A DNA stretch of 64,000 nucleotides, taken from positions 62,001 to 126,000 of the forward strand of contig NZ_JABBWV010000018.1 of assembly GCF_012999535.1 (NCBI RefSeq), given 5' to 3'. The DNA is from Microbispora sp. H11081 (lineage in GTDB: Bacteria; Actinomycetota; Actinomycetes; Streptosporangiales; Streptosporangiaceae). The position numbers were made by a program, and so were the translations under genes. How positions within the stretch are numbered: position 1 is the stretch's first letter; each line of letters starts with the position of its first letter. Positions 34,499 to 49,334 of the stretch are shown here, piece after piece. The notes beneath the pieces are model-generated. The model ran no database searches. It worked only from the letters and a program-made list of their open reading frames with translations, and was not told where the DNA came from.

Positions 34499-35324
34499 TC
34501 AGGCGGCGGAGCAGATGTAGAGCATCATCCTGCGGCGGTCGAAGTCGAGGTCGTACGTCCGGGTCTCCTCGGCCCGCAGCCCGGTCGCGGCCAGCAGGCC
34601 GGCGACGGCGGCGTCGGGCAGCACGGCCTTGGTCCAGCCGCCGAGATAGCGCCGGGTCCGCCCGGTCGCGTCGACCGACTCGGCGTAGTAGTTCATGATC
34701 TGCACGCCCTCCTCGGGGAGGTAGCGGTGGGCGCTCAGCACGAACTGCTCCTCTCCTCCCGAGGAGGCGGGGAAGGCGACGAGGTCGCCGTTCTGCGCCA
34801 GCAGGCGGTCCTGCTCGGCCAGGGCGTTGTCGAACGCGAACCGCCCGCCGGGCGCGAGGTGCGCGCGGACGCGGGAGAAGACCTCGTGCCTGTCGGCCTC
34901 GTCCGCGAGCAGCCCGAGGTTGTTGGCGGGCAGCAGCACCAGGCCGAACCGCTCGTCCAGCCGCAGGTCGCGCATGTCGGACTCGACGATCGTCACCCGC
35001 CGGGCCACGCTCTCGTCCTCGCGCTCCAGGCGGCGGCGCAGCAGGGCGAGCATGTCGGGCGAGGCGTCGAGGGCGATCACCTCGTGTCCCTGCCTGGCCA
35101 GCGGCACCGTGATCCGTCCGCTGCCGCAGCCGAGTTCGAGCACCGGCCCCGGGCTGTTCGCGGCCAGCTTGAGGTAGTCGTCCAGGTCCCACTCGTACGC
35201 CTGGGGAGAGCGCGTCGTAGAGGGCGGCGAAGTAGCCGGTGTACACCGGCATGACCTCGGTCAGCGGAAGGCGCATCCGGCGGAGCATCTCGAAGACGCC
35301 GAAGAACCGAGGCTCGGGGTACAT
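34499..35324 (-). pseudogene. Class I SAM-dependent methyltransferase, frameshifted
   Basis: ATG 35324 (AAGGGAG 6 bases ahead) starts MYPEPRFFGVFEMLRRMRLP and reads well to about residue 41, then the frame is lost at the CCCC run at 35203-35206 on the minus strand. Removing one C gives LSQAYEWDLDDYLKLAANSP and then VLELGCGSGRITVPLARQG (motif I) and continues to ICSAA. The restored protein would be about 274 residues. It follows the MFS gene by 11 bases in the same operon. It may be a genuine mutation or a homopolymer sequencing error. The C-terminal part alone (34499-35143) lacks the N-terminus. Third-position GC is normal on both sides, so any decay is recent. Confidence 0.75.
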
Positions 35325-35335
35325 TCCGGCTCCCT

Positions 35336-36598
35336 TCACGTGGTGGTCTGGGCGGCGGGCCGCAGCCCGGTCCGGTGGCCGACGACGACCGCGCCGGCGC
35401 CGAGCAGCCCCGCGACGGCGAACGCCACGCGGGGGCTCTGCCCGGTCATGGCCGTGAGCTGCCCCGCCAGCACGGCGCCGAGGGGATAGGCGGCGACGGC
35501 CAGCGTGCGCGCCGTCGCCGTCACCCTGCCGATCAGCTCGGGGGGCACGACCCGCTGGCGCAGGGCCCGGATGTGCACCGTGGCCAGCACGCTCGTCAGC
35601 CCGATCACGAGGTTGGCGGCGGCCAGCCAGGCCACCGAGGGGGCCGCCGAGGCGGCGGCCAGCGCGCCCGCCAGCACGAGCAGCGCGCCGGAGATCAGGG
35701 TGGGAGCGGCGACGCGGCGGCCGAGCGGACCGGCGATCGAGGCGCCGAGCACCCCGCCGCCCGCGCCCGCGGCCAGCGCGACGCTGGCCCCGGCCGGCCC
35801 GCCGCCCAGCGTGTGCACGGCGAAGAAGACGATCAGGGTCTCGACGGCGAGCAGCAGGTTGACCACGACCTGCAGCCCGCACACGGCCCGCACCAGCCGG
35901 TGCCGCCGCAGGTAGGACAGCCCTTCACGCAGGTCGCCCGCCGCCCGCCGCACCGACAGGCCGCTGCCCCGCTCCCGCCGTACGGCGTCGCGCGGCAGCA
36001 GCCACAGCGTGACCACCGAGACGCCGTACGACGCGGCGTTGACGAGGAGGCAGACGCCCGCGCCGGGGCCCGCGGCGATCGCCCCGGCCAGGGCGGGCCC
36101 GGCGAGCACCCCGAGTTGGGTGCTGAGCTCCAGCCGGGAGTTGCCGGCCACCAGGTGGGCCGGGGCGAGGATGCCCTGCAGCATGGCCGCGTGCGCGGTG
36201 TCGAACAGCACGCCGAACACCGCGGCGACCACCGCCAGCCCGAGCAGGACCCAGACGGGGGCGGCGCCGGCCAGGGCGAGCGCGGTGAGCAGCGTGAAGA
36301 CGGCCAGCCTGGCGGTGTCGCAGGCCAGCATCACCCGCCGGGTGTCGAGCCGGTCCACCAGCGCGCCCGCGACCAGCCCCGACAGCAGATAGCCGATCGT
36401 CTGCGGGGTGGCCGCGAGCGCCGCGAGCACCGGGTCGGAGGTCTGCTGAAGCACCAGCAGCGGGATCGCGAGCAGCGCCATGCCGTCGCCGACGGCGGAC
36501 ACGCTCTGCCCTCCCCACAGCAGCAGGAAGGGCAGGTCGCGGGGCCTGGACCCGGCGTGGGACGCCGTGGAGGCGCCGGGCGCGGCAGGGCGCGTCAC
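35336..36598 (-). CDS. MFS exporter (macrolide-efflux type)
   Basis: 420 residues, 12 helices, similar in layout to MefA-type exporters: FLLLWGGQSVSAVGDGMALL at the start, GALVDRLDTRRVMLACDTAR (motif A), and LDGRVTATAR-like IGRVTATARTLAVAAYPLG. GTG 36598 overlaps the stop of the HDO gene (GTGA). It should export the product of the peptide/HDO unit and give self-resistance. Confidence 0.88.
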   Translation of the reverse strand: MTRPAAPGASTASHAGSRPRDLPFLLLWGGQSVSAVGDGMALLAIPLLVLQQTSDPVLAALAATPQTIGYLLSGLVAGALVDRLDTRRVMLACDTARLAVFTLLTALALAGAAPVWVLLGLAVVAAVFGVLFDTAHAAMLQGILAPAHLVAGNSRLELSTQLGVLAGPALAGAIAAGPGAGVCLLVNAASYGVSVVTLWLLPRDAVRRERGSGLSVRRAAGDLREGLSYLRRHRLVRAVCGLQVVVNLLLAVETLIVFFAVHTLGGGPAGASVALAAGAGGGVLGASIAGPLGRRVAAPTLISGALLVLAGALAAASAAPSVAWLAAANLVIGLTSVLATVHIRALRQRVVPPELIGRVTATARTLAVAAYPLGAVLAGQLTAMTGQSPRVAFAVAGLLGAGAVVVGHRTGLRPAAQTTT

Positions 36599-38406
36599 CG
36601 GCCGGCGCGCCAGGCGACGCGCTGGATCACCGCGGCCGGGCCGTACGCGTAGTGCGCCCTGATGCCGTCGAGGAAGCTCCAGGTGAGCTGGGGCACCAGG
36701 GCGGCGGAGGCGATGGTGTCCGGCCCGATCGGATGCTCCGCCAGCAGGTCGAGCATCTCCCGCACGTCGTGGGCGTGCCCGAGGTCGGTGTCCTCGGCGT
36801 CGTGCCGCCGCATCACGTCGAGCAGCGGCCGGGCGTCCGGCAGCCGCTCGGTGACGGTGCGGTAGAACGACACGTGCCTGTCGGCGGGGCCGTCCCCTTC
36901 GGCGCGCAGCGTGAGCTGCAGGAAGGCGACCGCCAGCACGTACGCCTTCCAGTCGCGCCCGGCGAGGCCGCGCAGCGCGCCGGTGAAGGCGCGGGTGCTC
37001 GGCAGCGGGCGCATGTGCTCGACGGCGAGGCCGCCGAACGCGCTCCCGCGCGCCTTGTCGATGCCCTCGCGGAACATCGCGCCATGCTCGAACTCCTCCT
37101 CCAGGTGGTGCACGAGGTGCAGGCGCATCCGGGGGTCGGGGCAGGCGGCGATGCCGGCCCCGCAGTGCTGCCAGATGGCCGCCACGTAGTGGTGGTTCTC
37201 GACGAGCCAGCCGTACACGAGGGGCAGCGTTGGCCGCTCGGTCATCTCCGTCCACAGGCGGTGGCCGTCGATGGCGCGCATCCACGTGCCGACGAGCTTC
37301 TCCAGCGCCGCGCCGCCGCCGTCCACGGGCCTGTGGCGGTACGGCGCGGCCAGGCGCGCCGCCGCCTTCGCCACTTCGGGCGCGTCGTCGAGCACGCCCT
37401 CCCCGTACGCGTACGCGGTGGCGACGGCGGCCCGCATCCCCGGGGTGAGGCCGGGGTCGCCGTGCGCCGCGAGATGGAGGATCTCGGCGGGCCACACGGG
37501 CAGGCCGCCGGCCTCGCCGCCCAGCGCGGCGGGGGCCGTCTCGCCGGCCGCGGTCAGCTCCGGCATGACCCCGACCAGGTCGCCGGAAAGGCCCCGGTGC
37601 AGCGAGTCGAGCCAGCGGACGATCGCCTCGGCCACGAGCGTGATCTCGTTGAGCGCGTCGGCGAGGTCCCACGCCGTCACCACCGCGGCGGCCTCGAGGG
37701 CCTCCTTCCAGTTCGAGCCGTGGCCGAGCCCGAGGTCGGTCTTGACGTGCTCGAAGATGGCGCTCATCGCCTCCGGGGCCACCTGGCCGCTCGCGGCGAC
37801 GTGCTCGTGCCAGCCCGCCACCGAGGTCCGGTTGCCCGCGGTGAACTCCAGCAGCCCGGAGCACAGGGCGGCGGGCAGCGGGCCCGCCTCGGCGACCGTG
37901 CGCATCAGGTGGATCCACTCGACCGTGGCCGGCCACGGCCGGGCGGCGCGGACCAGGGCGCGGTCGCAGCCGAGCGCGGCCAGGCCGTTCTCGAAGTAGG
38001 TGTCGTGGTCGGCCTCCTCGACCACGTGCCTGGCCTGCAGTTCGTTCAGCGCGTCGGGGCGGGGGCCCGCGCCGACGCCGGGCGCCATCCGGAACGGCGC
38101 CGCCGCCAGGTAGTGCCGGTTCTCCAGCAGGTAGGCCCGCAGGAAGGCGGCGGCCGTGCCCGCCCTGACCTCGCTCCACGCGGGGTGGGAGTAGACGTGC
38201 TCCAGGCAGGCCTCGTACTGGCCGAGCACCAGGGCCTGCGCCTCCTCGGCGGTGAGCGTGCCCGCCTCGTCCCCGGTGACGAGGGTGGGCGAGATCCTGT
38301 CGAGCAGCGCCTCGGCCGCCGTCGCGGGGACCTCGGCGCGGTCGAGCAGCAGTGCCGGGTCCGCTGCGGGACCCAGAAGGAACGGTGTCGTCCGGCGGAG
38401 CCTCAC
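36595..38406 (-). CDS. Two-domain haem-oxygenase-like di-iron (HDO) enzyme
   Basis: 603 residues. Both halves carry the iron-containing redox pattern: domain 1 has LLENRHY (93-99), EEADHDTYF (130-138) and TDLGLGH (223-229); domain 2 has LVENHHY (401-407), HLEEEFEH (434-441) and DTDLGHAHD (539-547). HDO members known from the literature (UndA, BesC, SznF) use O2 to cleave or oxidise amino acids and fatty acids. Full-length duplication within one chain is unusual. GTG with GGAGGAAGC upstream. Placed between a 31-codon peptide gene and an exporter. Substrate could be the peptide, an amino acid or a fatty acid. Confidence 0.85.
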   Translation of the reverse strand: MRLRRTTPFLLGPAADPALLLDRAEVPATAAEALLDRISPTLVTGDEAGTLTAEEAQALVLGQYEACLEHVYSHPAWSEVRAGTAAAFLRAYLLENRHYLAAAPFRMAPGVGAGPRPDALNELQARHVVEEADHDTYFENGLAALGCDRALVRAARPWPATVEWIHLMRTVAEAGPLPAALCSGLLEFTAGNRTSVAGWHEHVAASGQVAPEAMSAIFEHVKTDLGLGHGSNWKEALEAAAVVTAWDLADALNEITLVAEAIVRWLDSLHRGLSGDLVGVMPELTAAGETAPAALGGEAGGLPVWPAEILHLAAHGDPGLTPGMRAAVATAYAYGEGVLDDAPEVAKAAARLAAPYRHRPVDGGGAALEKLVGTWMRAIDGHRLWTEMTERPTLPLVYGWLVENHHYVAAIWQHCGAGIAACPDPRMRLHLVHHLEEEFEHGAMFREGIDKARGSAFGGLAVEHMRPLPSTRAFTGALRGLAGRDWKAYVLAVAFLQLTLRAEGDGPADRHVSFYRTVTERLPDARPLLDVMRRHDAEDTDLGHAHDVREMLDLLAEHPIGPDTIASAALVPQLTWSFLDGIRAHYAYGPAAVIQRVAWRAGR

Positions 38407-38449
38407 GCTTCCTCCAGCGGGGTCGGGTGCACGGGTGCCAGTCGGGGGA

Positions 38450-38477
38450 GGTGCCGGGAGGCGCGCCTCCCGGCACC
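38450..38477 (-). terminator. Perfect hairpin between the peptide gene and the HDO gene
   Basis: GGTGCCGGGAGG pairs with CCTCCCGGCACC (12 bp, GC-rich, 4-nt CGCG loop that itself can pair), 14 bases past the peptide stop. No T-run; it is likely to attenuate or process the transcript so that the peptide is made in excess of the enzyme. Confidence 0.65.
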
Positions 38478-38490
38478 CCGGCGTGCCCTG

Positions 38491-38586
38491 TTACTCGACG
38501 ACCGCGGGCCGCAGGTCGTCCGCGGCGCTCTCGGCGCGCACGACGATCTCGGCGAGGCCCTCGAGTTCCTCGGTGGTCAGGTGCAT
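38491..38586 (-). CDS. 31-residue peptide encoded ahead of the HDO enzyme
   Basis: ATG 38586 is preceded by GAGAGGAGGTGTGAG, the most complete Shine-Dalgarno in this part of the window. The frame MHLTTEELEGLAEIVVRAES continues for 11 residues to RPAVVE and a TAA stop. It is acidic, helical in pattern (LTTEELEGLAEIV), with no Cys, Ser/Thr-poor at the end. Such a short, well-translated gene before a modifying enzyme and an exporter is the usual look of a RiPP precursor or peptide carrier. I know no family that matches it. Nearly all third positions are G or C. Confidence 0.65.
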   Translation of the reverse strand: MHLTTEELEGLAEIVVRAESAADDLRPAVVE

Positions 38587-38710
38587 CTCACACCTCCTCT
38601 CCGGGGTTTCGGACGATCACGATTGTTTCCGCGGCCCGCGAGCGCCGTCCACGCCGTACGACTGGCCGGATGGGGCGTTTCCCCTAGTGGACAGCGGGTC
38701 GAGGCCGGGA
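38587..38710 (-). promoter_or_regulatory. Promoter region of the peptide-HDO operon
   Basis: 124 bases between the reductase 3' end and the peptide. It contains the ribosome binding site and an AT-richer tract, ACAATCGTGATCGTCC, about 30 bases upstream of it. It could carry a promoter separate from the long upstream operon. Confidence 0.4.
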
Positions 38711-39739
38711 TCAGCCGACGAGCCCCCACGGCTCTGGGGTGCGCAGGGCCAGCCTGGGGCGGGTCCTGGCCCACCACCGGACGGATTCGGCCAGCACGGA
38801 GGCGGGGTCGAGCACCGGGCGGGTGGGCGTGAACGGCTTGGGCATGCTCGTGTAGCTCTCGAACATCCCGAGCAGTTCGACGGCCTGCGACTGCACCGGG
38901 GACAGGTGGCGGCGGGCCAGCGGCAGGAAGAACCGGTGCCACCGCTCCGTCGCGATGAAGGGCGGGGCGGCGATGGGGGCGGCCCCGGCCGCCGCGCGCA
39001 CCTCGTTGAGCGTGCCGCAGATGACGTCGACGAGAGCGGCCAGGCGCAGGGTGGCGTCCCCAGCCGCGATGACCTCGGTCGCCGGGGTGTCAGGCGGGTC
39101 GCCCAGGGCGGCGCCGGCGATCACCTCGGCCACCTGGTCCACCGGCGCTATCTCCGCGTACCCCTCCGGGTCGCCCACCACCGCCGCGGCCAGCCCGGAC
39201 ACGAGCGTCTGCAGCAGCGTGTAGGGGCCGGAGAAGCGCGCGATGGCGCCGTCGGAGCGCCGGCCGAGGATGAGGGGCGGGCGCACCACGGTCACCGGCC
39301 CCCGGTGCCGTTCGAGCACCAGCCGTTCGCAGCGCGCCTTCGACCACTCGTAGGCGTTCCGGTAGCGGCCGAACTCCGACGGCGGAAAGGTCTCGTCCGG
39401 CTCGCGCCCGTCGGCGTACGCGGTGGATACGTGCACCACGTGGGTGCCCTCGCCGGCCAGGTCGAGCACGCCGAGCGTCGGCCCGACGTTGGCGGCCACG
39501 GCCTCCTCGCGGGTCATCGTCCACCGGGTGGACGCCGCAGTGTGCACGATCACGTCCCACGGCCCCGCCAGTTCGGCCGGCGGGGGCTGCGCGCCCATCG
39601 ACCACCCGACCTGCCCGGGCTCGCGCGGCGTGCGTACGGCGAGGGTCAGCTCGATCCCGTCGCGCCCGGCCAGCAGCCGGGCCGTCTCGGAGCCGACGAC
39701 CCCGGCCGCGCCGGTCAACAGGACCCGTGCGGCGCTCAT
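38711..39739 (-). CDS. NAD(P)-dependent extended SDR, thioester-reductase-like
   Basis: 342 residues. TGAAGVVG (9-16) binds NAD(P), and VHVSTAYADG then YEWSK (Tyr130, Lys134) form the active site. The long C-terminal region (YASMPKPFTP-like SYTSMPKPFTPTRP) resembles thioester reductase domains that release acyl-ACP as aldehyde. The ATG overlaps the KAS stop (ATGA). The next step could be transamination by the operon's class III aminotransferase. Confidence 0.8.
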   Translation of the reverse strand: MSAARVLLTGAAGVVGSETARLLAGRDGIELTLAVRTPREPGQVGWSMGAQPPPAELAGPWDVIVHTAASTRWTMTREEAVAANVGPTLGVLDLAGEGTHVVHVSTAYADGREPDETFPPSEFGRYRNAYEWSKARCERLVLERHRGPVTVVRPPLILGRRSDGAIARFSGPYTLLQTLVSGLAAAVVGDPEGYAEIAPVDQVAEVIAGAALGDPPDTPATEVIAAGDATLRLAALVDVICGTLNEVRAAAGAAPIAAPPFIATERWHRFFLPLARRHLSPVQSQAVELLGMFESYTSMPKPFTPTRPVLDPASVLAESVRWWARTRPRLALRTPEPWGLVG

Positions 39740-40983
39740 CCCTCGCCGCCCTGCCAGGCGAGGGGAGCCAGCACCAGGCAGGCGTTGTGGCCGCCGAAGC
39801 CGAAGGAGTTGGACAGCACGGGCGCGGGCGCGATCCGCCGGGGCTCCGCCGTGACGAGGTCGAGCAGGTCGGCGTCCGGCCCGCCGCCGAGGTTCGCCAC
39901 CGGCGGGACCAGCCCCCGCGAGGCGCAGGCCAGCGCCGCCACCGCCTCGAAGGCGCCCGCGCCGCCGAGCAGGTGGCCGGTGACGCCCTTGCTCGCCGTC
40001 ACGGGGGGCATGTCGCCGCCGAAGCAGGCGGCGATGCCGCGCGCCTCCGCCCGGTCGTTGAGCACGGTCGCGGTGCCGTGCGCGTTCACGTGCCCGATCT
40101 CGGCGGGCTGCAGGGCGGCGTCGGCCAGCGCCAGCCGCATGCAGGCCGCGGCGGTCGAGCCGTCCTGCACGGGCGCGACGATGTGGTGGGCGTCCGAGGT
40201 GGAGGCGTAGCCGAGGACCTCGCCCAGGATGGGCGCCCCCCGGGCCACGGCGCGGTCCCAGCGTTCCAGGACCATCGCCGCCGCGCCCTCGCCCATGACG
40301 AACCCGTCGCGATCCCGGTCGAACGGACGGGAGGCGGCCGAGGGGTCGTCGCCGCGCTGCGACAGCGCGCCGATGCGGGAGAACGCGGCGAGCACGAGCG
40401 GGGACAGCGCGGAGTCGACCCCTCCCGCCACGACCCGCTCCAGCTCCCCTGAGCGGATCTTCTGCGCCGCCTCGCCGATCGCCGTCGCGCCGCTTGCGCA
40501 GGCGGTCGAGTACGTGAGGCACGGCCCCCGGGCGCCCAGGCGCAGCCCGATCCGCGCGGCGGGGGCGTTGGCCATGATCCGGAGCACGGTGTAGACGGGC
40601 ATCTCGCCGGGCTCGCCGCCGTGGTCCAGCACGACCTCCCTGGCGACGTCCAGCCCGGCGGCGCCGATGCCGACGCTCACGCCCATCTCGTCTCCGGCGG
40701 GGTCGTCGAGGCCGGCGGCCCGGACGGCGTCGACCGCCGCCGCGAGCATCAGCACGGCCGAGCGGTCCATCTGCCGCGACTCGCGCACCGTCACGTACGC
40801 CGAGGGGTCGAAGTGCGGCACCCGGCAGGCGAAGGTGACCGGCGAGCGCCCCTCGACCAGCTCGGGCAGCGTGGCCGCCGTGGACTTGGCGGCCAGGAGC
40901 GTGTCCACGGTCTCGTCCACGGTGAGCCCGGCGGGCGACTTGACCCCCAGCCCGGTGATCGCGACGCGGCGCCGGGGGGTCAC
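39736..40983 (-). CDS. Beta-ketoacyl-ACP synthase (KAS II type)
   Basis: 415 residues, single condensing enzyme with complete catalytic set: Cys162 in STACASG, His302 in NAHGTAT, Lys332 and His337 in ASKGVTGHLLG. It condenses acyl-ACP with malonyl-ACP. GTG start overlaps the ACP stop (GTGA). Dedicated to this operon and not the housekeeping fatty acid set, since no FabG, FabZ or FabD lies beside it. Confidence 0.92.
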   Translation of the reverse strand: MTPRRRVAITGLGVKSPAGLTVDETVDTLLAAKSTAATLPELVEGRSPVTFACRVPHFDPSAYVTVRESRQMDRSAVLMLAAAVDAVRAAGLDDPAGDEMGVSVGIGAAGLDVAREVVLDHGGEPGEMPVYTVLRIMANAPAARIGLRLGARGPCLTYSTACASGATAIGEAAQKIRSGELERVVAGGVDSALSPLVLAAFSRIGALSQRGDDPSAASRPFDRDRDGFVMGEGAAAMVLERWDRAVARGAPILGEVLGYASTSDAHHIVAPVQDGSTAAACMRLALADAALQPAEIGHVNAHGTATVLNDRAEARGIAACFGGDMPPVTASKGVTGHLLGGAGAFEAVAALACASRGLVPPVANLGGGPDADLLDLVTAEPRRIAPAPVLSNSFGFGGHNACLVLAPLAWQGGEG

Positions 40984-41231
40984 GCCCGCTCCAGGATCAG
41001 GCGGTGCAGGGAGTCGACCGCGTCTCCCACGTTCTTCATCTCCATCAGGTCGTCCACCCTGATCCGTACGCCGAGGGCGGATTCGAGGCGGGCCCCGATC
41101 TCCATCAGCTCCAGGCTGTCGACCTGGTACTCCTCCCTGAGGTCGGTCTTCTCCGTCACCTCGGTCTCCAGCAGGCCCATGACCGAGGCGATCCTCGCCC
41201 GGACGAGGGCCGACAGCTCGCTGCGGTCCAC
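40980..41231 (-). CDS. Acyl carrier protein
   Basis: 83 residues. Phosphopantetheine site QVDSLELMEI (Ser39), with conserved helix II/III pattern. It carries the growing chain for the KAS, dehydrogenase and reductase. AAGGAG lies 8 bases before GTG 41231. Confidence 0.93.
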   Translation of the reverse strand: MDRSELSALVRARIASVMGLLETEVTEKTDLREEYQVDSLELMEIGARLESALGVRIRVDDLMEMKNVGDAVDSLHRLILERA

Positions 41232-41235
41232 AGCA

Positions 41236-42498
41236 TCAGCTCCTTGGGGAATCGGCCGGCGCGCACAGCCCGGGAGAGCGTTCGTCGAGGTCGAGCGAGG
41301 CCCGCAGGCCCAGGGCGCGGCGCCCCAGATACTGACGGGCCGCCGCCGGGGTGGGCGGGTGGAACCTGATCGCCTGCGCGTCGCGCCACAGGCGCTCCAG
41401 CACGCCCCCCTTGCCGTACGACACGCCGCCCGCGCATTCGGCCACGGCGGCGACGAGGTCGGGCACGGTACGCACGGCCTGCTGCTTGACGGCCAGCGCC
41501 GCCGCGAGCAGGGCCTGCGGGTCGGCCCCCGCGTCCATGCGGGCCGCGACGGCGGCGCAGCCCGCCTCCAGGGTGAGCAGGGCGGCGACGTGCTCGCCCA
41601 GCGTCGCCTGATAGCTCGGCAGTTCGGCGCGGGCGGCTCCCAGGTGGGCGATCCGCATGCGGTGCAGCAGCCCGGCCCCGGCGTCGAGCGCCGCCCGGGC
41701 GAGCCCGAGATAGCAGGCCGTCGAGGTGAGCGCGAACCAGATCACCCCGGCCGCGAGGATGTCGTCGTCCTCGGCCCCGGCCGGGGCGCGGTAGAAGACC
41801 AGCTCGTCGGGGATCACGCACCGGTCGAGCAGCAGGGTGTTGGACGCCGATCCCCGCATGCCGAGGGTGTCCCAGTCCTCCCGTACGGAAAGGCCGGGCG
41901 CGGTGGTGGGGAGCAAGGCGACGATCACCTCCACTGGCCCGTCGCCCTTGTCGGTCGCGAGCTGGAGGCAGACCAGGTCGGCCTCCTTGACGAGCGAGCA
42001 CGGCCGCTTGGTCCCCGAGGCCTGCCAGCCGCCGGGCACCGGGACGGCGGTCAGCGTCGAGCGCGAGGCCGACCCGCCCAGGTTCGGCTCGGCGAACGCC
42101 GAGGCGAGCAGCCGGTTCTGGGTGGCGATCGCCTCCATGAGCAGCCAGGACGTGTCGGTCCTGCGCCGCCAGTGCTCGACCATCAGGCCGACGGAGAACA
42201 GGTGCATGTTGAGGGCCACGGCCAGCGCGGGATCGGCCGCGCCGAGCGCGCGCTGGACGGCGCAGCACTCCGTCAGGCCCAGCCCGGCCCCGCCGAACTC
42301 GCGGGGGACGGGCAGGCCGGGCCAGCCGAGCGACTTCAGGAGGGCGATGCTGTCCATCGGGGGCCGCCCGGCCAGGTCCGCCCCGGCGGCGTGGCCCGCG
42401 ATCTTCGCGAGGGCGTCTTCTGGCAGGAAGGCGCTCGTGTCGGGCCAGCCGCCCGGCCACAGGCCGGGTGGCTGCGTGCGGGTGGTCGCGGTCGTCAT
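41236..42498 (-). CDS. Acyl-CoA (or acyl-ACP) dehydrogenase
   Basis: 420 residues: FAD-binding region GTKRPCSLVKEADLVCLQLA, EFGGAGLGLTECCAVQRAL near the N-terminus, and C-terminal helices with CAGGVSYGKGGVLERLWRDA. Placement beside an ACP suggests an ACP-bound substrate. It probably passes electrons to the fused ETF encoded upstream in the operon. ATGA overlap with the aminotransferase. Confidence 0.87.
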   Translation of the reverse strand: MTTATTRTQPPGLWPGGWPDTSAFLPEDALAKIAGHAAGADLAGRPPMDSIALLKSLGWPGLPVPREFGGAGLGLTECCAVQRALGAADPALAVALNMHLFSVGLMVEHWRRRTDTSWLLMEAIATQNRLLASAFAEPNLGGSASRSTLTAVPVPGGWQASGTKRPCSLVKEADLVCLQLATDKGDGPVEVIVALLPTTAPGLSVREDWDTLGMRGSASNTLLLDRCVIPDELVFYRAPAGAEDDDILAAGVIWFALTSTACYLGLARAALDAGAGLLHRMRIAHLGAARAELPSYQATLGEHVAALLTLEAGCAAVAARMDAGADPQALLAAALAVKQQAVRTVPDLVAAVAECAGGVSYGKGGVLERLWRDAQAIRFHPPTPAAARQYLGRRALGLRASLDLDERSPGLCAPADSPRS

Positions 42499-43805
42499 CG
42501 GGACACCTCCACGGCCGCCGCCCCGACCGCCGCCGACAGCGCGTCGAACGCCCGCTCGACGTCGGCGCGGGTGGCGACGAGCGGAGGCAGGAGGCGGAGC
42601 GTCTCCGGGCGGCTCAGGCAGGGGGAGACCAGCAGGCCGCGCTGCGCCAGCCCGATCTGCACCTCTCCCGACAGCTCAGGGCTCGCGAAGTCGACCCCCC
42701 ACAGCAGGCCGCGCCCGCGGGTGCCGGTGACGGCGTCCGGGTGCGTGCGCCGCAACTCGGCCAGCCCGGCGCGGATCCAGCCGGAGATCGTCTCGCCCTG
42801 GCCGGCGAGTCCCTCCACCGCGGCCAGGGCGGCGGGCACGGCGGCGGCGCACAGCGGCTGCCCGGCGAAGGTGGCGCTATGCCTGAAGGGGTCGTCGAGG
42901 AGCGGCCGGTAGAGCTCGTCGGAGCAGACGGCGGCCGAGATCGGGACCACCCCGCCGCCGAGGGGCTTGCCGAGGAGCACCGCGTCCACGGGCAGGCCCG
43001 CGTGCAGCGCGAGCGAGGGCTTCCCCGCCCTGCGCAGGCCCGTCTGGATCTCGTCGGCGATCGCGAACGCGCCGGCGGCGTGCGCGTCCTCGCACCACCG
43101 GGCCAGCACGCCGGGGTCGAGCGGCACCACGCCGTTCTCGCCCTGGACCGGCTCGAACACCACGGCCGCCACGTCCCCCTCGGCGCAGGCGCGCAGCACC
43201 GCGCCGGGGTCGCGGGGGTCGAGGTGGGTCGCGTGCGGCAGGACGGGCTCCAGCCCGGCGCGGAAGCGCTCGTGGTGGGTCAGGGCCAGCGCGCCCAGCG
43301 ACTTGCCGTGGAACGCGCCGCGTACGGCGAGGACGCGCGGCCGTCCCGAGGCCAGCCGGGCCAGTTTGACGGCCACCTCGACGGCGTCGGAGCCGTTGAC
43401 CCCGAAGTAGACGCGCCGCAGCCAGCCGCCGAGATGCTCCGACAGCCGCTCGGCGGCCTCCGCCGTCACGGGGTTGACCAGCGACCTGCTCGACACCGGC
43501 ATCGCGTCGAGTTGCCGGCGTACCGCCTCCGTCACGGCCGGGTGCCGGTGGCCGAGGAGCGTCACGGCGTACGACCCGAAGTCGAGCATCCTGCGGCCGT
43601 CGGTCAGCGTGATCTCGGCGCCCGACGCCGCGGCCTCGGCCGCGCCCTGCCCGGCGAACTTCCCGGCCAGCGCGACGGCGGGCGAGAAGTGCCGCTGCAC
43701 CCGGCGGAAGGCGTTCTTCGCGGCGTTCCCCGCGGGGTTGCCGAGCGCGCTCCTTCCCGGGTCGCGCGCCGTCCGTGCGCCGTCCGTCGTGAGGGCGCCC
43801 GTCAC
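42495..43805 (-). CDS. Class III pyridoxal-phosphate aminotransferase
   Basis: 436 residues. Schiff-base Lys280 in LLGKPLGGG, Asp251 of IADEIQTGLR, and glycine loop FGVNGSDAVE. Family members act on amino groups far from a carboxylate (ornithine, GABA, putrescine, DAPA). Here it could aminate the aldehyde formed by the SDR. GTG start overlaps the stop of the SRPBCC gene. Confidence 0.9.
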   Translation of the reverse strand: MTGALTTDGARTARDPGRSALGNPAGNAAKNAFRRVQRHFSPAVALAGKFAGQGAAEAAASGAEITLTDGRRMLDFGSYAVTLLGHRHPAVTEAVRRQLDAMPVSSRSLVNPVTAEAAERLSEHLGGWLRRVYFGVNGSDAVEVAVKLARLASGRPRVLAVRGAFHGKSLGALALTHHERFRAGLEPVLPHATHLDPRDPGAVLRACAEGDVAAVVFEPVQGENGVVPLDPGVLARWCEDAHAAGAFAIADEIQTGLRRAGKPSLALHAGLPVDAVLLGKPLGGGVVPISAAVCSDELYRPLLDDPFRHSATFAGQPLCAAAVPAALAAVEGLAGQGETISGWIRAGLAELRRTHPDAVTGTRGRGLLWGVDFASPELSGEVQIGLAQRGLLVSPCLSRPETLRLLPPLVATRADVERAFDALSAAVGAAAVEVSR

Positions 43806-44245
43806 GATGCCGCCACTCCGGCCCTGCGGCCGATCTGGTCGAGGATGGCGCGGGAGTTGTCCTCAAGCGCGCGGGCGGCCACCGGGTTGAGCATCTCGGC
43901 CATCAGGGGGATGCCGATGTCGAACTCCACGCTCAGCTCGACCATGGTCCCCTCAGGCCCGGCCGTCACCTGCCAGTGGCCGTTGAAGTAGGCGAGGTCG
44001 CCCTCGGTCTGCTCGAATTCGATGCGGTGGGCGTCGTGGTCGATGCGTTCGCGTTCCTCCCACTCCAGCTCCGACCCTTTGAGCAGCACCGCCCACCGGC
44101 TCCAGCGCAGCTCGCCGTCCTCCTTGAGAATCTCGATCTCCCGGACCTCGGGCATGTAGCCGGGGAAGGCCTCGCAGTCGAGTAACACCTTCCACACGTG
44201 GTCGACCGGGCAGTCGGTGATGTGCTGAGTCCGCACGACGGGCAT
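43802..44245 (-). CDS. SRPBCC (polyketide cyclase / COQ10-like) family protein
   Basis: 147 residues from ATG 44245 (AGGAG 7 bases ahead; GTG 44251 is an alternative directly touching the binding site). HITDCPVDHVWKVLLDCEAF, EDGELRWSRWAVLLKGSELE, and FDIGIPLMAEMLNPV. A hydrophobic-cavity fold used by aromatase/cyclases and lipid binders. A role in holding or cyclising the ACP-bound chain is inference. Confidence 0.82.
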   Translation of the reverse strand: MPVVRTQHITDCPVDHVWKVLLDCEAFPGYMPEVREIEILKEDGELRWSRWAVLLKGSELEWEERERIDHDAHRIEFEQTEGDLAYFNGHWQVTAGPEGTMVELSVEFDIGIPLMAEMLNPVAARALEDNSRAILDQIGRRAGVAAS

Positions 44246-44255
44246 CTTCACTCTC

Positions 44256-45620
44256 CTAGCCGAAACTGTTCCTGCGGGTCAGGGCGGCGCCGACGGCGAG
44301 CAACGCGAGCGCGCAGCCGGCGAGCAGCGCCCGGGCCGGGCCGGTGACGGCCGGGCCGGCGGCGCCGGCCAGCGCGAGGCTGGCGGCGGCGGTGGCGAGG
44401 GCGGTCATCACGGCGTCGGCCAGTGCCATCGCGGCGGAGGCCGTGCCCTGCTCGGCCTGGGACGCCAGGTCGAGCACCGTCGCGTTGAGCGCGATCATGA
44501 CGAGGTTGGCGCCGAAGCCGGTGAGCGCCCATCCGGCGTACACCAGGGCGATCGGCCCGGCCAGGCCCGCGGCGGTCACGGCCAGGGCCGCGACCTGTGT
44601 CAGGGTCCCCGCGATCGCGACGTGCGGGCGGCCGAAGCGGGCGAGCCACGGCGTGCTGTGCAGCAGGCCCCCGGCGGCGAACCCGACGATCCCGGTCGAC
44701 AGCGCCGCCCCGGCGGCCGACAGGGACAGCCCCCGCCCCTCCGACAGGGCGAGCGGCAGGACGAACGCGAGCCCGGCCCACGGGCCGCCCGCGAGCCCGC
44801 GCAGCAGCACGGCGGCGGGCAGGCCTGGAGCCAGGCGCAGCGCGCCGGGAGGCAGCAACGGCCGCCCGCCGAGCACGACCGCCGCGAGCGAGGCCGCCAG
44901 CACCGGCCACGCCCAGGCGGGCGGCAGGTGCCGGAGGTTCATCAGCGTCACCACGCCGCAGGCCAGCAGGCCCGCCGCGGCCAGGCGCGCGGGCAGCGTG
45001 CCTAGCCCACCGGGCGCGCCCGGCCGGTCGTGCCACAGGCCCACGATCGAGGGCCAGATGAGCGCCAGCGCGACGGCCTCGACGACCGGCACGGGCGCCA
45101 GCACCCACCGCCAGCCCACCGTGTCGGTCACCACGCCGGCGATCAGCGGACCGGCCAGCGCGGGCAGGGCCCACGCCATGGCCAGCCAGCCGAGCAGGCG
45201 GCCGCGGCGGGCCTTCGGGTAGTAGCGGCCGATGATGACGTAGACGCACACCCACACCAGGCCGTGCCCGATCCCCTGCACGACGCGCCCGGCCAGCAGC
45301 CAGCCGGCGAACGGCGCCGTGGCGCAGACCAGCAGGCCCGCGCCGTGCAGCGCCGCGCCGGTGACGAAGACCCGCAGCGGCCCGAGCGTTCCCGCCAGGA
45401 TCCCGCCCGCCACCAGCGCCACGAGCTGGGCGAGCACGAACAGGCCGAAGACCAGGACGTACAGGGACCGGCCCCCGATCTCGGCGAGCGCGGCGGGGGC
45501 GAGGGTGGCGGTCGCGGTGGCCTCGAACGAGGCCACCGTCACGGTCAGGATGAGCGTGAGCGTGAGGCGGGGGCGGCCGGCCGTCGCCTCCTGCGCGTTC
45601 GCGACCGCGGGCCCGGTCAA
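44256..45620 (-). CDS. MFS transporter in the chain-building operon
   Basis: 454 residues, 12-14 helices: SFEATATATLAPAALAEIGG, motif A-like YYPKARRGRLLGWLAMAW, and RVVQGIGHGLVWVCVYVII. TTG start with GAGGGGG 5 bases upstream. Probably an exporter for the operon product. Confidence 0.87.
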   Translation of the reverse strand: MTGPAVANAQEATAGRPRLTLTLILTVTVASFEATATATLAPAALAEIGGRSLYVLVFGLFVLAQLVALVAGGILAGTLGPLRVFVTGAALHGAGLLVCATAPFAGWLLAGRVVQGIGHGLVWVCVYVIIGRYYPKARRGRLLGWLAMAWALPALAGPLIAGVVTDTVGWRWVLAPVPVVEAVALALIWPSIVGLWHDRPGAPGGLGTLPARLAAAGLLACGVVTLMNLRHLPPAWAWPVLAASLAAVVLGGRPLLPPGALRLAPGLPAAVLLRGLAGGPWAGLAFVLPLALSEGRGLSLSAAGAALSTGIVGFAAGGLLHSTPWLARFGRPHVAIAGTLTQVAALAVTAAGLAGPIALVYAGWALTGFGANLVMIALNATVLDLASQAEQGTASAAMALADAVMTALATAAASLALAGAAGPAVTGPARALLAGCALALLAVGAALTRRNSFG

Positions 45621-45644
45621 GGTTGCCCCCTCACGACCGCCCCC

Positions 45645-46148
45645 TCACAGCTGCCACGTCATCCAGTCGATGGGGGCGAGACCCAGACGCGTACGCAGCG
45701 CCTCGATGTCGGCCCCGATGCGGATGCTGGGGAAGAAGCCCTTGGCCGTGCGGATCACCGGCATCCTGATGGGCAGGTCGCCTTCGAGCCCGGCCGCCGC
45801 GCGCAGCGCCGTCTCCCTGGCCGCGTGCGCCTCCGCCCGGCCCGCCCCGAAGCTCGTGGGCAGGTCGCGCAGGAGCGCGGCCTCCGCGACGTCGCCAAGG
45901 CAGACGCGCAGAGCCAGCTCGTCCCTTGGGCATTTGCCCTGATAACCGGCGAGGATCAGGCGGGCGTAGACGACCGCGTGCAGCGTCTCGGAGGCCGCCT
46001 CCACGCAGGTGGGCCAGTCGTCGTCCGCGAGCGCGGCCTCGATGTCGGCCAGCGAGCTCTGCACTTCGAGCACGTACACCCAGGCGGCGGGGGCGGCCCG
46101 GGTCGCGAACCACAGCGCGTCGTACGAGCCGGTCGCGGTGGTGGTCAC
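45645..46148 (-). CDS. Helical partner of the nucleotidyltransferase, unknown function
   Basis: 167 residues from GTG 46148, overlapping the nucleotidyltransferase stop. Mostly helical (YDALWFATRAAPAAWVYVLE, TLHAVVYARLILAGYQGK), then an extended GEGLEGDLPIRMPVIR-like tract (LEGDLPIRMPVIRTAKGF) with FFPSIRIGADIE. The layout recalls HEPN-type helical proteins paired with minimal nucleotidyltransferases, but I see no RxxxxxH RNase motif. I do not recognise the family. Confidence 0.65.
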   Translation of the reverse strand: MTTTATGSYDALWFATRAAPAAWVYVLEVQSSLADIEAALADDDWPTCVEAASETLHAVVYARLILAGYQGKCPRDELALRVCLGDVAEAALLRDLPTSFGAGRAEAHAARETALRAAAGLEGDLPIRMPVIRTAKGFFPSIRIGADIEALRTRLGLAPIDWMTWQL

Positions 46149-47116
46149 GCGCCCACCTCCCGCAGGGCCGCCGCCAGCGCCCGCTCGTCCACGGTCAGCC
46201 GCAGCAGCCCGGCGCCGAGCAGCGCGGCGACCTCGCCGGGGCCGGTCGCGGCCAGGACCTCGGCGCAGGGGCCGCTGGCCGGGCGGCGGCCGGGTTCGAG
46301 CCGCCCGAGCGGGGTGAGGTGGTGGAGCTGCCTGCCGACCGGCACGTCCGCGGTGCCCGTCCCCGGCTCGAAGCGGCTCAGCGCAAGCGGGTCGAGGCCG
46401 TCGAGACCGAGCCCGGCGACCAGTTCGGCCACGTCCCCGCCGCCGGCCGCGGACATGGCGGCGCGTACGAAGTCCTCGGGCACTCGGGCCCTGGCCACCC
46501 GGGCGGGCAGCCACTTGCGGCCGATCGGCGGGTAACCCGCCGCCGCCGCGGACAGGCTGAGCAGAGACCTGCCGCACACGCGCCACAGGTGGCCAGCGTC
46601 CGCGCCTGAGCGGGCGACGACCTCCGCCGTGCCCCACGCGGCCACGACGGCGGTGAGCGCGACGCGCAGCAGGTACGCCAGCGCGTCCTGGCGCCGCTCG
46701 TCGTCCAGGATCGGGGGCGTGCCCGTGTCGATGGGGATGGCGGTGCACCAGCGGGTCAGCCGGCCCGTCTCCTCATGGCCCAGCGTCACCTCCGGCGTCA
46801 TCCGGCCCAGCTTGGTCACGACGCTCTCGGACGGCAGGCGGGACGTCACGTCCTCGGCGTACGTCGCGGGATAGTGCTCGACGTCCACGGTCAGCGAGCC
46901 GATGAAGAAGAGGTAGGGCGGCGCCGGCCTCGGCACCTCCGGGGAGAAGACGTGGACGTCCACGTCGCTGCCCCGGTTGCCGAATCCCTGCGCGAGCGAA
47001 CCCACGAGATACGCGGGCCCGGTGGTGAGGAGGCTGCCGCCGTGCCGCCGGAGCTCCTCGAGCGTGGTGCCGACCTTGGCCAGCGCCTGGTCGGCGATCA
47101 GCAGGGCGTCTGTCAC
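46145..47116 (-). CDS. Minimal nucleotidyltransferase domain protein
   Basis: 323 residues. The Pol-beta-type motif GSLAQGFGNRGSDVDVHVFS gives the Gly-Ser (39-40) and Asp-x-Asp of SDVDVHVF (50-57) that bind metal and NTP. The rest is a helical, Ala-rich substrate domain. Could transfer a nucleotide to a small metabolite for activation or resistance. GTG 47116 with AGGAT upstream, and an operator-like palindrome lies about 100 bases further upstream. Confidence 0.78.
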   Translation of the reverse strand: MTDALLIADQALAKVGTTLEELRRHGGSLLTTGPAYLVGSLAQGFGNRGSDVDVHVFSPEVPRPAPPYLFFIGSLTVDVEHYPATYAEDVTSRLPSESVVTKLGRMTPEVTLGHEETGRLTRWCTAIPIDTGTPPILDDERRQDALAYLLRVALTAVVAAWGTAEVVARSGADAGHLWRVCGRSLLSLSAAAAGYPPIGRKWLPARVARARVPEDFVRAAMSAAGGGDVAELVAGLGLDGLDPLALSRFEPGTGTADVPVGRQLHHLTPLGRLEPGRRPASGPCAEVLAATGPGEVAALLGAGLLRLTVDERALAAALREVGA

Positions 47117-47209
47117 ATCACATCCTTTGGGCGGGAATCGAAGATCATCGCGCGGGGGGATGGAGCGAGTCTCGTGAGGCCGTCCCCTGGGCGTCCAGGG
47201 CCGTACGGT

Positions 47210-47237
47210 GGCCGTTTCGGGCATGCCGGTAACGGCC
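47210..47237. promoter_or_regulatory. 28-bp operator-like palindrome between nucleotidyltransferase and ETF genes
   Basis: GGCCGTTTCGGGCA and TGCCGGTAACGGCC are inverted copies with 12 of 14 matches. The half-site recurs at 49089 and 49160. Confidence 0.6.
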
Positions 47238-47250
47238 GGACCCGCCCGGA

Positions 47251-49011
47251 TCAGCCGGTCAACGACCGAAGCTCGCCCACCAGCGCGGGCACGGCCTCGG
47301 CCCAATCGGCGACCACCCCCGCGTCGGCGCAGGAGAAGACGGGGGCGTGCGGGTCGGGGTTGACCGCCAGCACGAACCCGGCCCGCCGTACGCCGGACAT
47401 GTGCGTGTTCTTGCCCGAGGCGCCGAGCAGCACGTAGAGGGCGGGTGCGACGGCCCTGCCGGTGATGCCGATCTGGCGGGACCGTGGCAGCCAGCCACGG
47501 TCGGTCACCTTGCGCGTGGCCGCGAGCTCCGCGTCGAGCACGTCGAGAAGCGGCTTCAGCTCGGCGTACCGCTCCGGGTCCACGCCCTGGCCCACGCCGA
47601 CCACGACGCGGGCCGCGGCCAGGTCCGCCGGGTCGTCCTCGGCCACCCTCTCGCTCACCGTGACCCTGCCCCGCGCCTCGACGTGCGCGGTCGTGATCGG
47701 GGCGGCGCCTGCGGCGCGTGGCGGGAGCACGGGCAGGACGCCCGGCCGTACGGTCGCCAGTTGCACGGGGGAGTGCACGCTGACGCGGGCCAGGCCGGCG
47801 GCGGTGGACTTCCAGCAGACCAGCCGCCCGTCCGCCGTCTCCAGCGTCTCCGCGTCGCCGACGAGACCGGCGCCGAGCCGGGCAGCCAGCCGCGCCGCCG
47901 CCTCCCGTCCCCAGGTCGTGCCAGGCGCGAGCACGGTCCCCGTCCCCGCGTCCGCCAGCAGGAGCGCGGCGGCCGTGGCGAGGTCCTCGGCCTCCGGCCG
48001 GGTCACGACGACCTCGTCCGCGCCCCACGACCAGGCGGTGTGCGGATCGGGCCGCCGCCCGCACAGCAGCACGGTGCGGTCCGCGCCGAGGGCCGCCGCG
48101 GCGGACAGCAGTTCGCGGGTCACCCGCTCGCGGCCGGTCTCCGCGAGAACGGTCACCACACCTCCCGCCACGCCGGTCCCGCCCGGGGGAGCGAGCGTGG
48201 CGGCCCCGGGCCCCGGGAAGGAGGCGGGGCGCGACAGCGCGCCGCTCGCGGCGAGCAGGGCGACGGCCTTCCTGACCTGGCGCTCCACCGAGCCCGACAG
48301 CCGCACGCCCGCGCGGCGGGGCGCCGCCGTAAGGACCTCGTCGACCCGGGTCGGGCTGCCCACGGCGCCCCACGGCCCCGGCCCGAGATCGGCCGAGGTC
48401 AGCACGGTGATCCGGTCGTCGCCCGCGCGGCGGTCCTGGGGCACCTTGCAGGGGTCGCAGGACCGCTCGGCGACGCTGATCACGGCGGGCACGCGGGTCC
48501 ACGCGGTCATGTGTCCGTCGTCCCGTTCGCAGCGGGCGTGCAGCGTCCGCCCCTCGACGGTGAGGTCGCGCACCCCGGTCAGCAGCGGGAGATCCAGCAG
48601 TTCCGCCACCTGCGGGGCGACCTGCCCGGTGTCCGCGTCCACCGAGCCGAGGCCCGCGACGACCAGGTCGTACGGCCCGTCCCTGCGCAGGGCGGCGGCA
48701 AGCGCACGGGCGGTCGCGAGCGTGTCCGACCCGGCGAGGACGGGATCGGTGATCAGAACGCCGTCGTCGGCGCCCCAGGCGATCGCCTCCCTGAGCACCT
48801 CCGCGGCGGCGGGCGGGCCGAGGGTGTAGACCGTGCAGGCGCCGCCGGTCGCGCGGGCCGTTTCCACGCCCTTCGCGACGGCCCTGCGGCAGTAGGGATT
48901 CATCTCCAGTGGCCGGCCCTCGCGCCGGAGGCGGCCGTCCGAGTCGAGACAAAGGTCGTCGTGCAGCGGCACCTGCTTGGCCAGGACGGCGATGCGCAGA
49001 CTTCCTGCCAT
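47251..49011 (-). CDS. Electron-transfer flavoprotein, beta and alpha subunits fused
   Basis: 586 residues. The first 250 or so match ETF beta (RIAVLAKQVPLHDDLC, GLGSVDADTGQVAPQVAELL, VPQDRRAGDD). The rest matches ETF alpha: VVVGVGQGVDP and the FAD site WLPRSRQIGITGRAVAPALY with GKNTHMSGV and NPDPHAPVF. Bacterial ETF is normally two separate proteins, so one chain is unusual. It would pass electrons from the operon's acyl dehydrogenase to the respiratory chain. ATG 49011 is chosen; the frame is open further upstream into the promoter. Confidence 0.85.
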   Translation of the reverse strand: MAGSLRIAVLAKQVPLHDDLCLDSDGRLRREGRPLEMNPYCRRAVAKGVETARATGGACTVYTLGPPAAAEVLREAIAWGADDGVLITDPVLAGSDTLATARALAAALRRDGPYDLVVAGLGSVDADTGQVAPQVAELLDLPLLTGVRDLTVEGRTLHARCERDDGHMTAWTRVPAVISVAERSCDPCKVPQDRRAGDDRITVLTSADLGPGPWGAVGSPTRVDEVLTAAPRRAGVRLSGSVERQVRKAVALLAASGALSRPASFPGPGAATLAPPGGTGVAGGVVTVLAETGRERVTRELLSAAAALGADRTVLLCGRRPDPHTAWSWGADEVVVTRPEAEDLATAAALLLADAGTGTVLAPGTTWGREAAARLAARLGAGLVGDAETLETADGRLVCWKSTAAGLARVSVHSPVQLATVRPGVLPVLPPRAAGAAPITTAHVEARGRVTVSERVAEDDPADLAAARVVVGVGQGVDPERYAELKPLLDVLDAELAATRKVTDRGWLPRSRQIGITGRAVAPALYVLLGASGKNTHMSGVRRAGFVLAVNPDPHAPVFSCADAGVVADWAEAVPALVGELRSLTG

Positions 49012-49334
49012 ATTTCCCGCCTTCAACTGGAAATAATGAGATATAAATGCGCTCCTTCTGTATAGAAGATCCGGCGGCATTTTCTTATGGCCGTTACCGG
49101 CGTGTCCGATAGGGGACACCCTTCTATTTATTACCTACAGGTAGTACATGGATTGCGCTGGCCGTTTTCGGCAGTGCCGGATCCGGACAGCTCGCCTCCC
49201 TGGACGTCCGGCGGGAGCACTGTGGAGACTCTCGAACCAGACGCGAGATTCCAAAACGTCCTTTTGTTTCACAATTGTTGCGCGGCTCTCGCGTCCAGGA
49301 AACGGCCTCATCCAATTTTCGGAGGACGGTCTAC
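49012..49334. promoter_or_regulatory. Divergent promoter region of the two gene clusters
   Basis: 323 bases, AT-richer than its surroundings. It holds two copies of GGCCGTTnnCGGC (49089-49102 and 49160-49173), an inverted repeat GTGTCC/GGACAC (49102-49119) and a small dyad TACCT/AGGTA (49132-49143). Short frames here lack binding sites and codon bias. Confidence 0.6.

Follow-up and report, generated by a model that had tools for sequence, protein, structure and literature searches.

A candidate peptide-modifying pathway in Microbispora: a conserved short peptide gene beside a tandem heme-oxygenase-like diiron enzyme

What does a heme-oxygenase-like diiron oxidase (HDO) act on when the gene just before its own encodes a peptide of only 31 residues? 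The substrates of HDOs are hard to guess, and the portion of a 2026 review consulted here counts more than 10,000 family members with about a dozen functionally validated (PMC13108848). We analysed a stretch of 64,000 nucleotides (nt) from Microbispora sp. H11081 (contig NZ_JABBWV010000018.1, positions 62,001 to 126,000; the window), in which a short peptide gene precedes the gene of a 603-residue protein with two HDO domains, followed by a transporter gene of the major facilitator superfamily (MFS). Our results point, with a probability of roughly 0.57, to a pathway like those of ribosomally synthesized and post-translationally modified peptides (RiPPs), in which the substrate, a peptide of 31-33 residues, undergoes oxidation by the HDO at the last residue of its ...AVVE end and the MFS protein exports the product.

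Conservation of the peptide gene

A sequence-only reading of the window had drawn attention to a 31-codon frame with a near-perfect Shine-Dalgarno sequence, and both are in place (Table 1). Relatives of the 603-residue protein were sought with short patterns taken from the window protein, which reach close relatives only. Two were found on genome contigs of Streptomyces malaysiense (L002) and Streptantibioticus silvisoli (Streptomycetaceae; L003), with 57% identity, and a third (L007) came from genome G494 in a 391-genome sample of the order of genome G345; L017 is a longer stretch of the L007 locus. HDO homologues without a short gene upstream had been named as a refuting result, and none was found: a peptide of 31-33 residues lies directly 5' of the tandem HDO at all four loci, with spacers of 84, 94, 87 and 88 nt in the window, L002 (measured to a TTG start codon), L003 and L007. 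The four peptides (MHLTTEELEGLAEIVVRAESAADDLRPAVVE, MAEEISIEELQEIADVEARAAEASQELRAAVVE, MAEQITVEELQEITALEERAEAAAAALRAAVVE and MAEEITVEELNEITELEQRADAAAAALRAAVVE, in the same order) bear out the C-terminal conservation for which an alignment had been proposed, all of them ending in LR(A/P)AVVE with the same final Glu, and 13 of 31 positions are invariant across the set, including some in the N-terminal half (EEL, RA).

Local alignment of the window peptide with the other three gave scores of 65, 64 and 65, against best scores of 55, 52 and 47 in 5000 shuffles each. A profile of the four peptides run on 293 genomes matched strongly only in G494 (1.1e-16) and G345 (1.2e-15), both of which carry the tandem gene. 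Matches at E up to 0.1 occur in 226 of the 293 genomes, the next after the strong pair being at 1.6e-3, and the weak ones, among the matches listed, fall inside open frames of at least 140 amino acids (aa). The peptide genes of L003 and L007, the closest pair, differ at 3 first, 1 second and 10 third codon positions. When the window gene is set against each of the others, more codons differ nonsynonymously than synonymously (17 to 2, 15 to 5 and 15 to 7), and constraint therefore seems to lie mostly in the invariant positions. Taken together these comparisons show conservation beyond chance, and the 31-codon frame is a genuine gene.

The tandem HDO gene is rare. It was found in one of 345 genomes of the window's order (E up to 1e-20) and one of 396 genomes of its phylum (E up to 1e-8), each time the window's own genome, while the full tandem protein is present in two of 391 genomes of G345's order, one of them the genome of L002 itself. 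No relatives were found among the plasmids and viral contigs searched. The gene order recurs too: peptide, tandem HDO and MFS pump form a common core in 4/4 loci (L007 via L017). The MFS genes 3' of the tandem HDO in L002 and L003 encode proteins 50% and 44% identical to the window's, and the match in G494 (L017:13130-14394) spans two reading frames. In the window the GTGA junction between enzyme and exporter genes was seen as described.

The strong hairpin that had been noticed after the peptide gene was recovered as a perfect stem in the spacer. We tested each spacer for perfect stems (loop 3-10) against 1000 dinucleotide shuffles. In the window, L003 and L007 the spacer has a stem that none of the 1000 shuffles reaches; the L002 spacer fails, with 956 of 1000 shuffles matching its longest perfect stem, and its predicted fold has an imperfect stem of 10 + 4 bp. 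At the loci of a sister system, described below, 0 shuffles reached the stem in L009 and L010 (near-identical loci), 11 in L008, 23 in L025, 390 in L024 and 956 in L017, so that five of ten loci, tandem and sister together, pass outright. The folding energy of the whole window spacer is ordinary against mononucleotide shuffles (z -0.7) because the spacer is very GC-rich. Peptide operons commonly have a stem after the gene of the precursor, and the hairpin may have a role in regulation.

The tandem enzyme and a sister system

The 603-residue gene carries its own GGAGGA ribosome-binding site, as first noticed. The claim that its product holds two full HDO motif sets stands for domain 1, in which the six-ligand set of three His and three carboxylates is kept in all four proteins, and fails for domain 2, where Gln497 occupies the place of Glu187 of domain 1, again in 4/4 proteins. 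An AlphaFold2 model of domain 1 from a 13-row alignment (pLDDT, the predicted local distance difference test, 81.5) has a confident heme-oxygenase-like fold; a full-length tandem model from 3 sequences (pLDDT 52) was set aside. Matches of the domain 1 model in the PDB include CADD, UndA and HrmI; MboA is absent among the fold matches listed (Foldseek, VIA). MboA was matched by a mixed-family sequence profile (4.4e-7), and domain 1 shares its six metal ligands, the H-x3-D-x4-H spacing of the third helix and the extra Asp that follows. The modelled fold and the ligand set place domain 1 in the HDO superfamily. A profile of domain 2 only found PqqC, weakly (0.0051).

A second type of HDO was found next to short peptides, which brings the evidence base to four tandem-HDO loci and six sister loci. 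The sister enzyme is a single HDO with an N-terminal winged-helix domain, found by profile at six loci in five of 293 genomes, and all six ligands are present in the five distinct sister enzymes that were aligned. Immediately 5' of it, in 6/6 loci, lies a peptide 23-25 residues long whose last two residues are CG; four distinct ones occur, MVKITVVKVEAPERDSKMAAVVTCG, MMKITVKKVEAPAGGSKIASVTTCG (two genomes), MSITIKPVEKPAMSKVAGAVLCG (two genomes) and MSISIKPVEKPQISKVSGAVLCG. An MFS gene follows the sister HDO in five of the six (that of L024 by eye); the frame that comes next in L025 resembles, by eye, a cysteine desulfurase. Once among the six loci, in G494, sister and tandem enzymes lie about 4 kb apart. 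Between these two HDO systems (L017:5260-7586) there are ornithine-cyclodeaminase-like and ThiF/E1-like proteins, labelled by eye.

About one in two prokaryotic RiPP classes has RiPP recognition elements (RREs), according to the portion of PMC10036551 consulted. The sister winged helix was considered as an RRE, but its PDB sequence matches are weak only (sigma factors, and PqqCD at E 0.38), and for this reason we keep the label winged-helix. An RRE embedded in the tandem enzyme was looked for too, and an hhalign comparison of its first 75 residues with the sister winged helix gave no match.

Table 1. Coordinates of the features discussed; positions without a locus prefix are those of the window
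Feature	Position	Strand	Basis
Peptide gene, probable precursor	38491..38586	-	31-codon ATG frame, MHLTTEELEGLAEIVVRAESAADDLRPAVVE, C-terminus LRPAVVE
AGGAGG ribosome-binding site of peptide gene	38593..38598	-	Sequence; six nt before ATG
Perfect 12-bp stem, 4-nt loop	38450..38477	-	Between peptide and HDO genes; 0/1000 dinucleotide shuffles reach stem
Tandem heme-oxygenase-like diiron protein, 603 aa	36595..38406	-	Pfam TENA_THI-4 1.3e-7; internal repeat hhalign 2.4e-9
HDO domain 1	37552..38259	-	Complete ligands E131 H134 E187 H220 D224 H229, plus D135
HDO domain 2	36598..37323	-	Five of six ligands, Gln497 replaces Glu
MFS exporter	35336..36598	-	MFS_1 6.4e-33, TIGR00900 2e-63; start overlaps HDO stop by GTGA (36598-36595)
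S-adenosylmethionine (SAM) methyltransferase, daptide-type-like	34499..35324	-	C-terminal part NF041820 1.1e-45, 156 bits against cut-off 175
Sister loci	L008, L009, L010, L017:2841-4004, L024, L025		Winged-helix-HDO fusion and short upstream peptide

A proposed pathway and its alternatives

The sequence-only reading had offered two roles for the system, peptide modification or use of the peptide as a carrier, and the first is now the best-supported. A conserved short gene beside a modifying enzyme, a mark of RiPP systems, was found at 4/4 tandem-HDO loci, and since the pairing of peptide and enzyme recurs in other soil bacteria it suggests that the enzyme alters the peptide's end. We infer that the peptide is translated and serves as the substrate, and its reaction, release and export could run as follows. 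The hairpin 3' of the peptide gene would lead to more peptide than enzyme. The acidic N-terminal part of the peptide would act as a recognition segment and the invariant LR(A/P)AVVE would hold the reaction site. Domain 1 would bind two irons, and the carboxylate at the free end of ...AVVE would ligate one of them, as that of Leu-Ala-Arg does in MboA. An O2-dependent oxidation of the C-terminal Glu would follow, most likely a desaturation between C-beta and C-gamma or, as a further step, a decarboxylation, and domain 2, one ligand short, could hold the peptide or perform a second, different step. A protease, none of which was recognised nearby, would cut off a short product, which would exit by the MFS pump.

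The closest model for this chemistry is MboA of the mangotoxin pathway, an HDO acting on the tripeptide Leu-Ala-Arg, which binds its substrate by the C-terminal carboxylate and desaturates the residue that carries it (PMC13185094); the site of its reaction is thus the last residue of a peptide, as we propose for the tandem HDO. It differs in that its substrate comes from ATP-grasp ligases and that it requires a redox partner, MboB, neither of which was recognised at the window locus. As far as the consulted part of PMC13108848 goes, five HDOs of the three-His/three-carboxylate type with substrate-bound structures have the substrate on Fe1. By analogy we would expect oxidation at the terminal Glu or, less likely, at the Val pair of ...AVVE, because a never-varying C-terminus suits an HDO whose substrate binds Fe1.

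Two observations weigh against the proposed pathway: MboA is not among the matches of a profile made from domain 1 only, and in L002, L003 and L007 predicted helices other than the main stem take up part of the ribosome-binding site of the HDO gene or bases at its edge. The latter would favour a short frame that is a regulatory leader peptide, a metabolite-responsive nascent-chain arrest or attenuator controlling the enzyme-exporter operon. A short frame and a hairpin before an enzyme and an efflux pump are also the layout of resistance leaders, and a conserved C-terminus would suit arrest. Yet the long stem of the window stops clearly short of the ribosome-binding site of the HDO gene, a site predicted to lie in the loop of a 4-bp hairpin, stem sequences vary between loci and the N-terminal half of the peptide has conserved residues as well. 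Nor did Rfam show a family at gathering score in the spacer (two matches, best E 0.14, on the other strand), and we regard a leader as improbable. The peptide could also serve the HDO as a small subunit or an activator rather than as its substrate, as its acidic and by eye helix-prone character and its strict co-occurrence with the HDO would allow. This is very unlikely in our view, given that conservation is strictest at the extreme C-terminus, fixed in 4/4, and that the sister HDO has an unrelated short peptide, with a fixed end too, at the same place.

A carrier role, in which a building block would be attached to the C-terminal Glu, modified by the HDO and its partners and released, has precedents in LysW-type amino-group carrier proteins and PEARL scaffold peptides. 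It would account for the invariant terminal Glu and for an exporter that is an MFS protein and not a peptide pump of the ATP-binding cassette (ABC) type, and the partners in L003 and L017 (TauD; aldehyde dehydrogenase (ALDH)-like and amidohydrolase-like proteins by eye only) suggest small-molecule chemistry. However, a Pfam and NCBIfam scan of 20 proteins (14 from the window at 34499-49119, 2 from L002 and 4 from L003; other neighbours were not scanned) found no ATP-grasp or LanB-like ligase, the peptide has no Cys or His metal pattern and it is about half the size of LysW. We consider a carrier unlikely. Returning to the RiPP-like pathway, one may tentatively go further and ask whether tandem and sister systems form an undescribed RiPP class. 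Diiron HDOs would then recognise a very short precursor by its free C-terminus and alter its last residue (Glu in the tandem system, Cys-Gly in the sister), for example to dehydro-, vinyl- or alkynyl forms, with the ligand-deficient second domain as a peptide-binding element that replaces the RRE; this is possible, though we hold it with less than even confidence.

Known systems, neighbouring genes and significance

The nearest known RiPP system is that of the thiovarsolins, which like the window locus has a heme-oxygenase-like enzyme (VarO), an MFS gene and a precursor gene in actinomycetes. In the part of PMC6511847 consulted, VarO is put forward as an enzyme that desaturates Arg of a ribosomal peptide, in most clusters within a repeated core, and together with YcaO-TfuA, and deletion of varO abolishes the dehydro products. 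The window locus differs in its tandem HDO, in a peptide with no repeats and in the C-terminal AVVE, and YcaO or TfuA was not found among its 14 scanned proteins. Daptides (MpaABCDM, PMC10036551) are also ribosomal peptides changed at the C-terminal residue, as we propose here, and the window methyltransferase resembles theirs. Their invariant C-terminal Thr, MpaB/MpaC, aminotransferase and methyltransferase are described in the consulted portion of that paper, where no HDO is mentioned. The window's class-III aminotransferase recurs with a neighbouring ketosynthase (KS) cluster. Daptide membership was rejected, the precursor C-terminus being Glu in 4/4 loci, unlike in daptides. PqqC needs no cofactor, and its substrate is a late intermediate. 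A natural PqqCD fusion joins it to PqqD (PDB 5sxy, 5vrd), and no genes for pyrroloquinoline quinone were seen among those scanned.

The sequence-only reading had named no RiPP family with a tandem HDO enzyme, and no tandem-HDO or HDO-plus-short-precursor system was found among the matches listed from the open-licence literature, subscription papers lying outside the search. In the consulted portion of PMC13108848 the word "tandem" occurs once, in another sense, and PMC6511847 is cited for ribosomal peptide modification. The claim of novelty is narrowed because HDO action on a ribosomal peptide was already known from VarO (PMC6511847); the novelty lies in the tandem enzyme, in a short precursor whose C-terminus is invariant and in the lack of YcaO/TfuA among the scanned genes.

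The genes downstream vary between loci. In the window the MFS gene is followed by the methyltransferase, whose C-terminal part resembles the daptide type at a score below the family cut-off and which reads in two frames: the N-terminal part from the ATG at 35324, the remainder in 34499-35143 and the shift within 35150-35324. Either the gene is disrupted or the assembly has an error at this point, and the enzyme may not work. In L003 and L017 a protein of about 310 aa, a TauD-type oxygenase and an amidohydrolase-like protein come before the MFS gene. The 310-aa family also follows the tandem HDO in L002 (L002:11850-12803, L003:9700-10629, L007:3320-4306), and the L002 protein is 51% identical to each of the other two. 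Those of L002 and L003 have no Pfam or NCBIfam match at 0.001; at E up to 1 the family gives only a TAL-effector match at 0.22, and the PDB gave nothing useful. The ALDH/LuxC-like label was given by eye and is unsupported by Pfam, NCBIfam or PDB, and the amidohydrolase-like label, also by eye, has no Pfam or NCBIfam match at 0.001. Directly before the peptide gene of L002 (L002:3508-9716) are a small protein whose leader is of the double-glycine type (ELDAVSGG) and two proteins that resemble ABC transporters, by eye of the NHLM type; together they may be a second export system for peptides.

Upstream in the window (38711-49119, reverse strand) stand a thioester-reductase-like short-chain dehydrogenase/reductase, a FabF-like KS, an acyl carrier protein (ACP), an acyl-CoA dehydrogenase, the class-III aminotransferase, a cyclase, an MFS protein and a fused electron-transfer flavoprotein, a set suggestive of a reductive acyl pathway that forms an amine or an aldehyde. 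Cyclase, aminotransferase, acyl-CoA dehydrogenase and thioester reductase recur together in L015 (19.9 kb) and L016 (16.0 kb), the KS in L015 only and the ACP in neither; in these two stretches an HDO match at 1e-3 and a frame with a VVE end are both absent and peptide matches have E of at least 0.097, with one methyltransferase match between 1e-6 and 1e-3 in L015. Because part of the set recurs without HDO or peptide, the genes at 38711-44251 (thioester reductase, KS, ACP, acyl-CoA dehydrogenase, aminotransferase and cyclase) were set aside as partners and treated as a separable neighbour, which may nevertheless feed the same product as the peptide system.

C-terminal peptide chemistry yielding alkene, alkyne or decarboxylated ends is sought for peptide tools. 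Here the likely substrate of an HDO is encoded next to the enzyme, and peptide and enzyme can therefore be tested together directly. Given the sister system, HDO-peptide pairs may represent a wider and overlooked type of RiPP, one that readily escapes notice, as its precursors measure only 23-33 residues.
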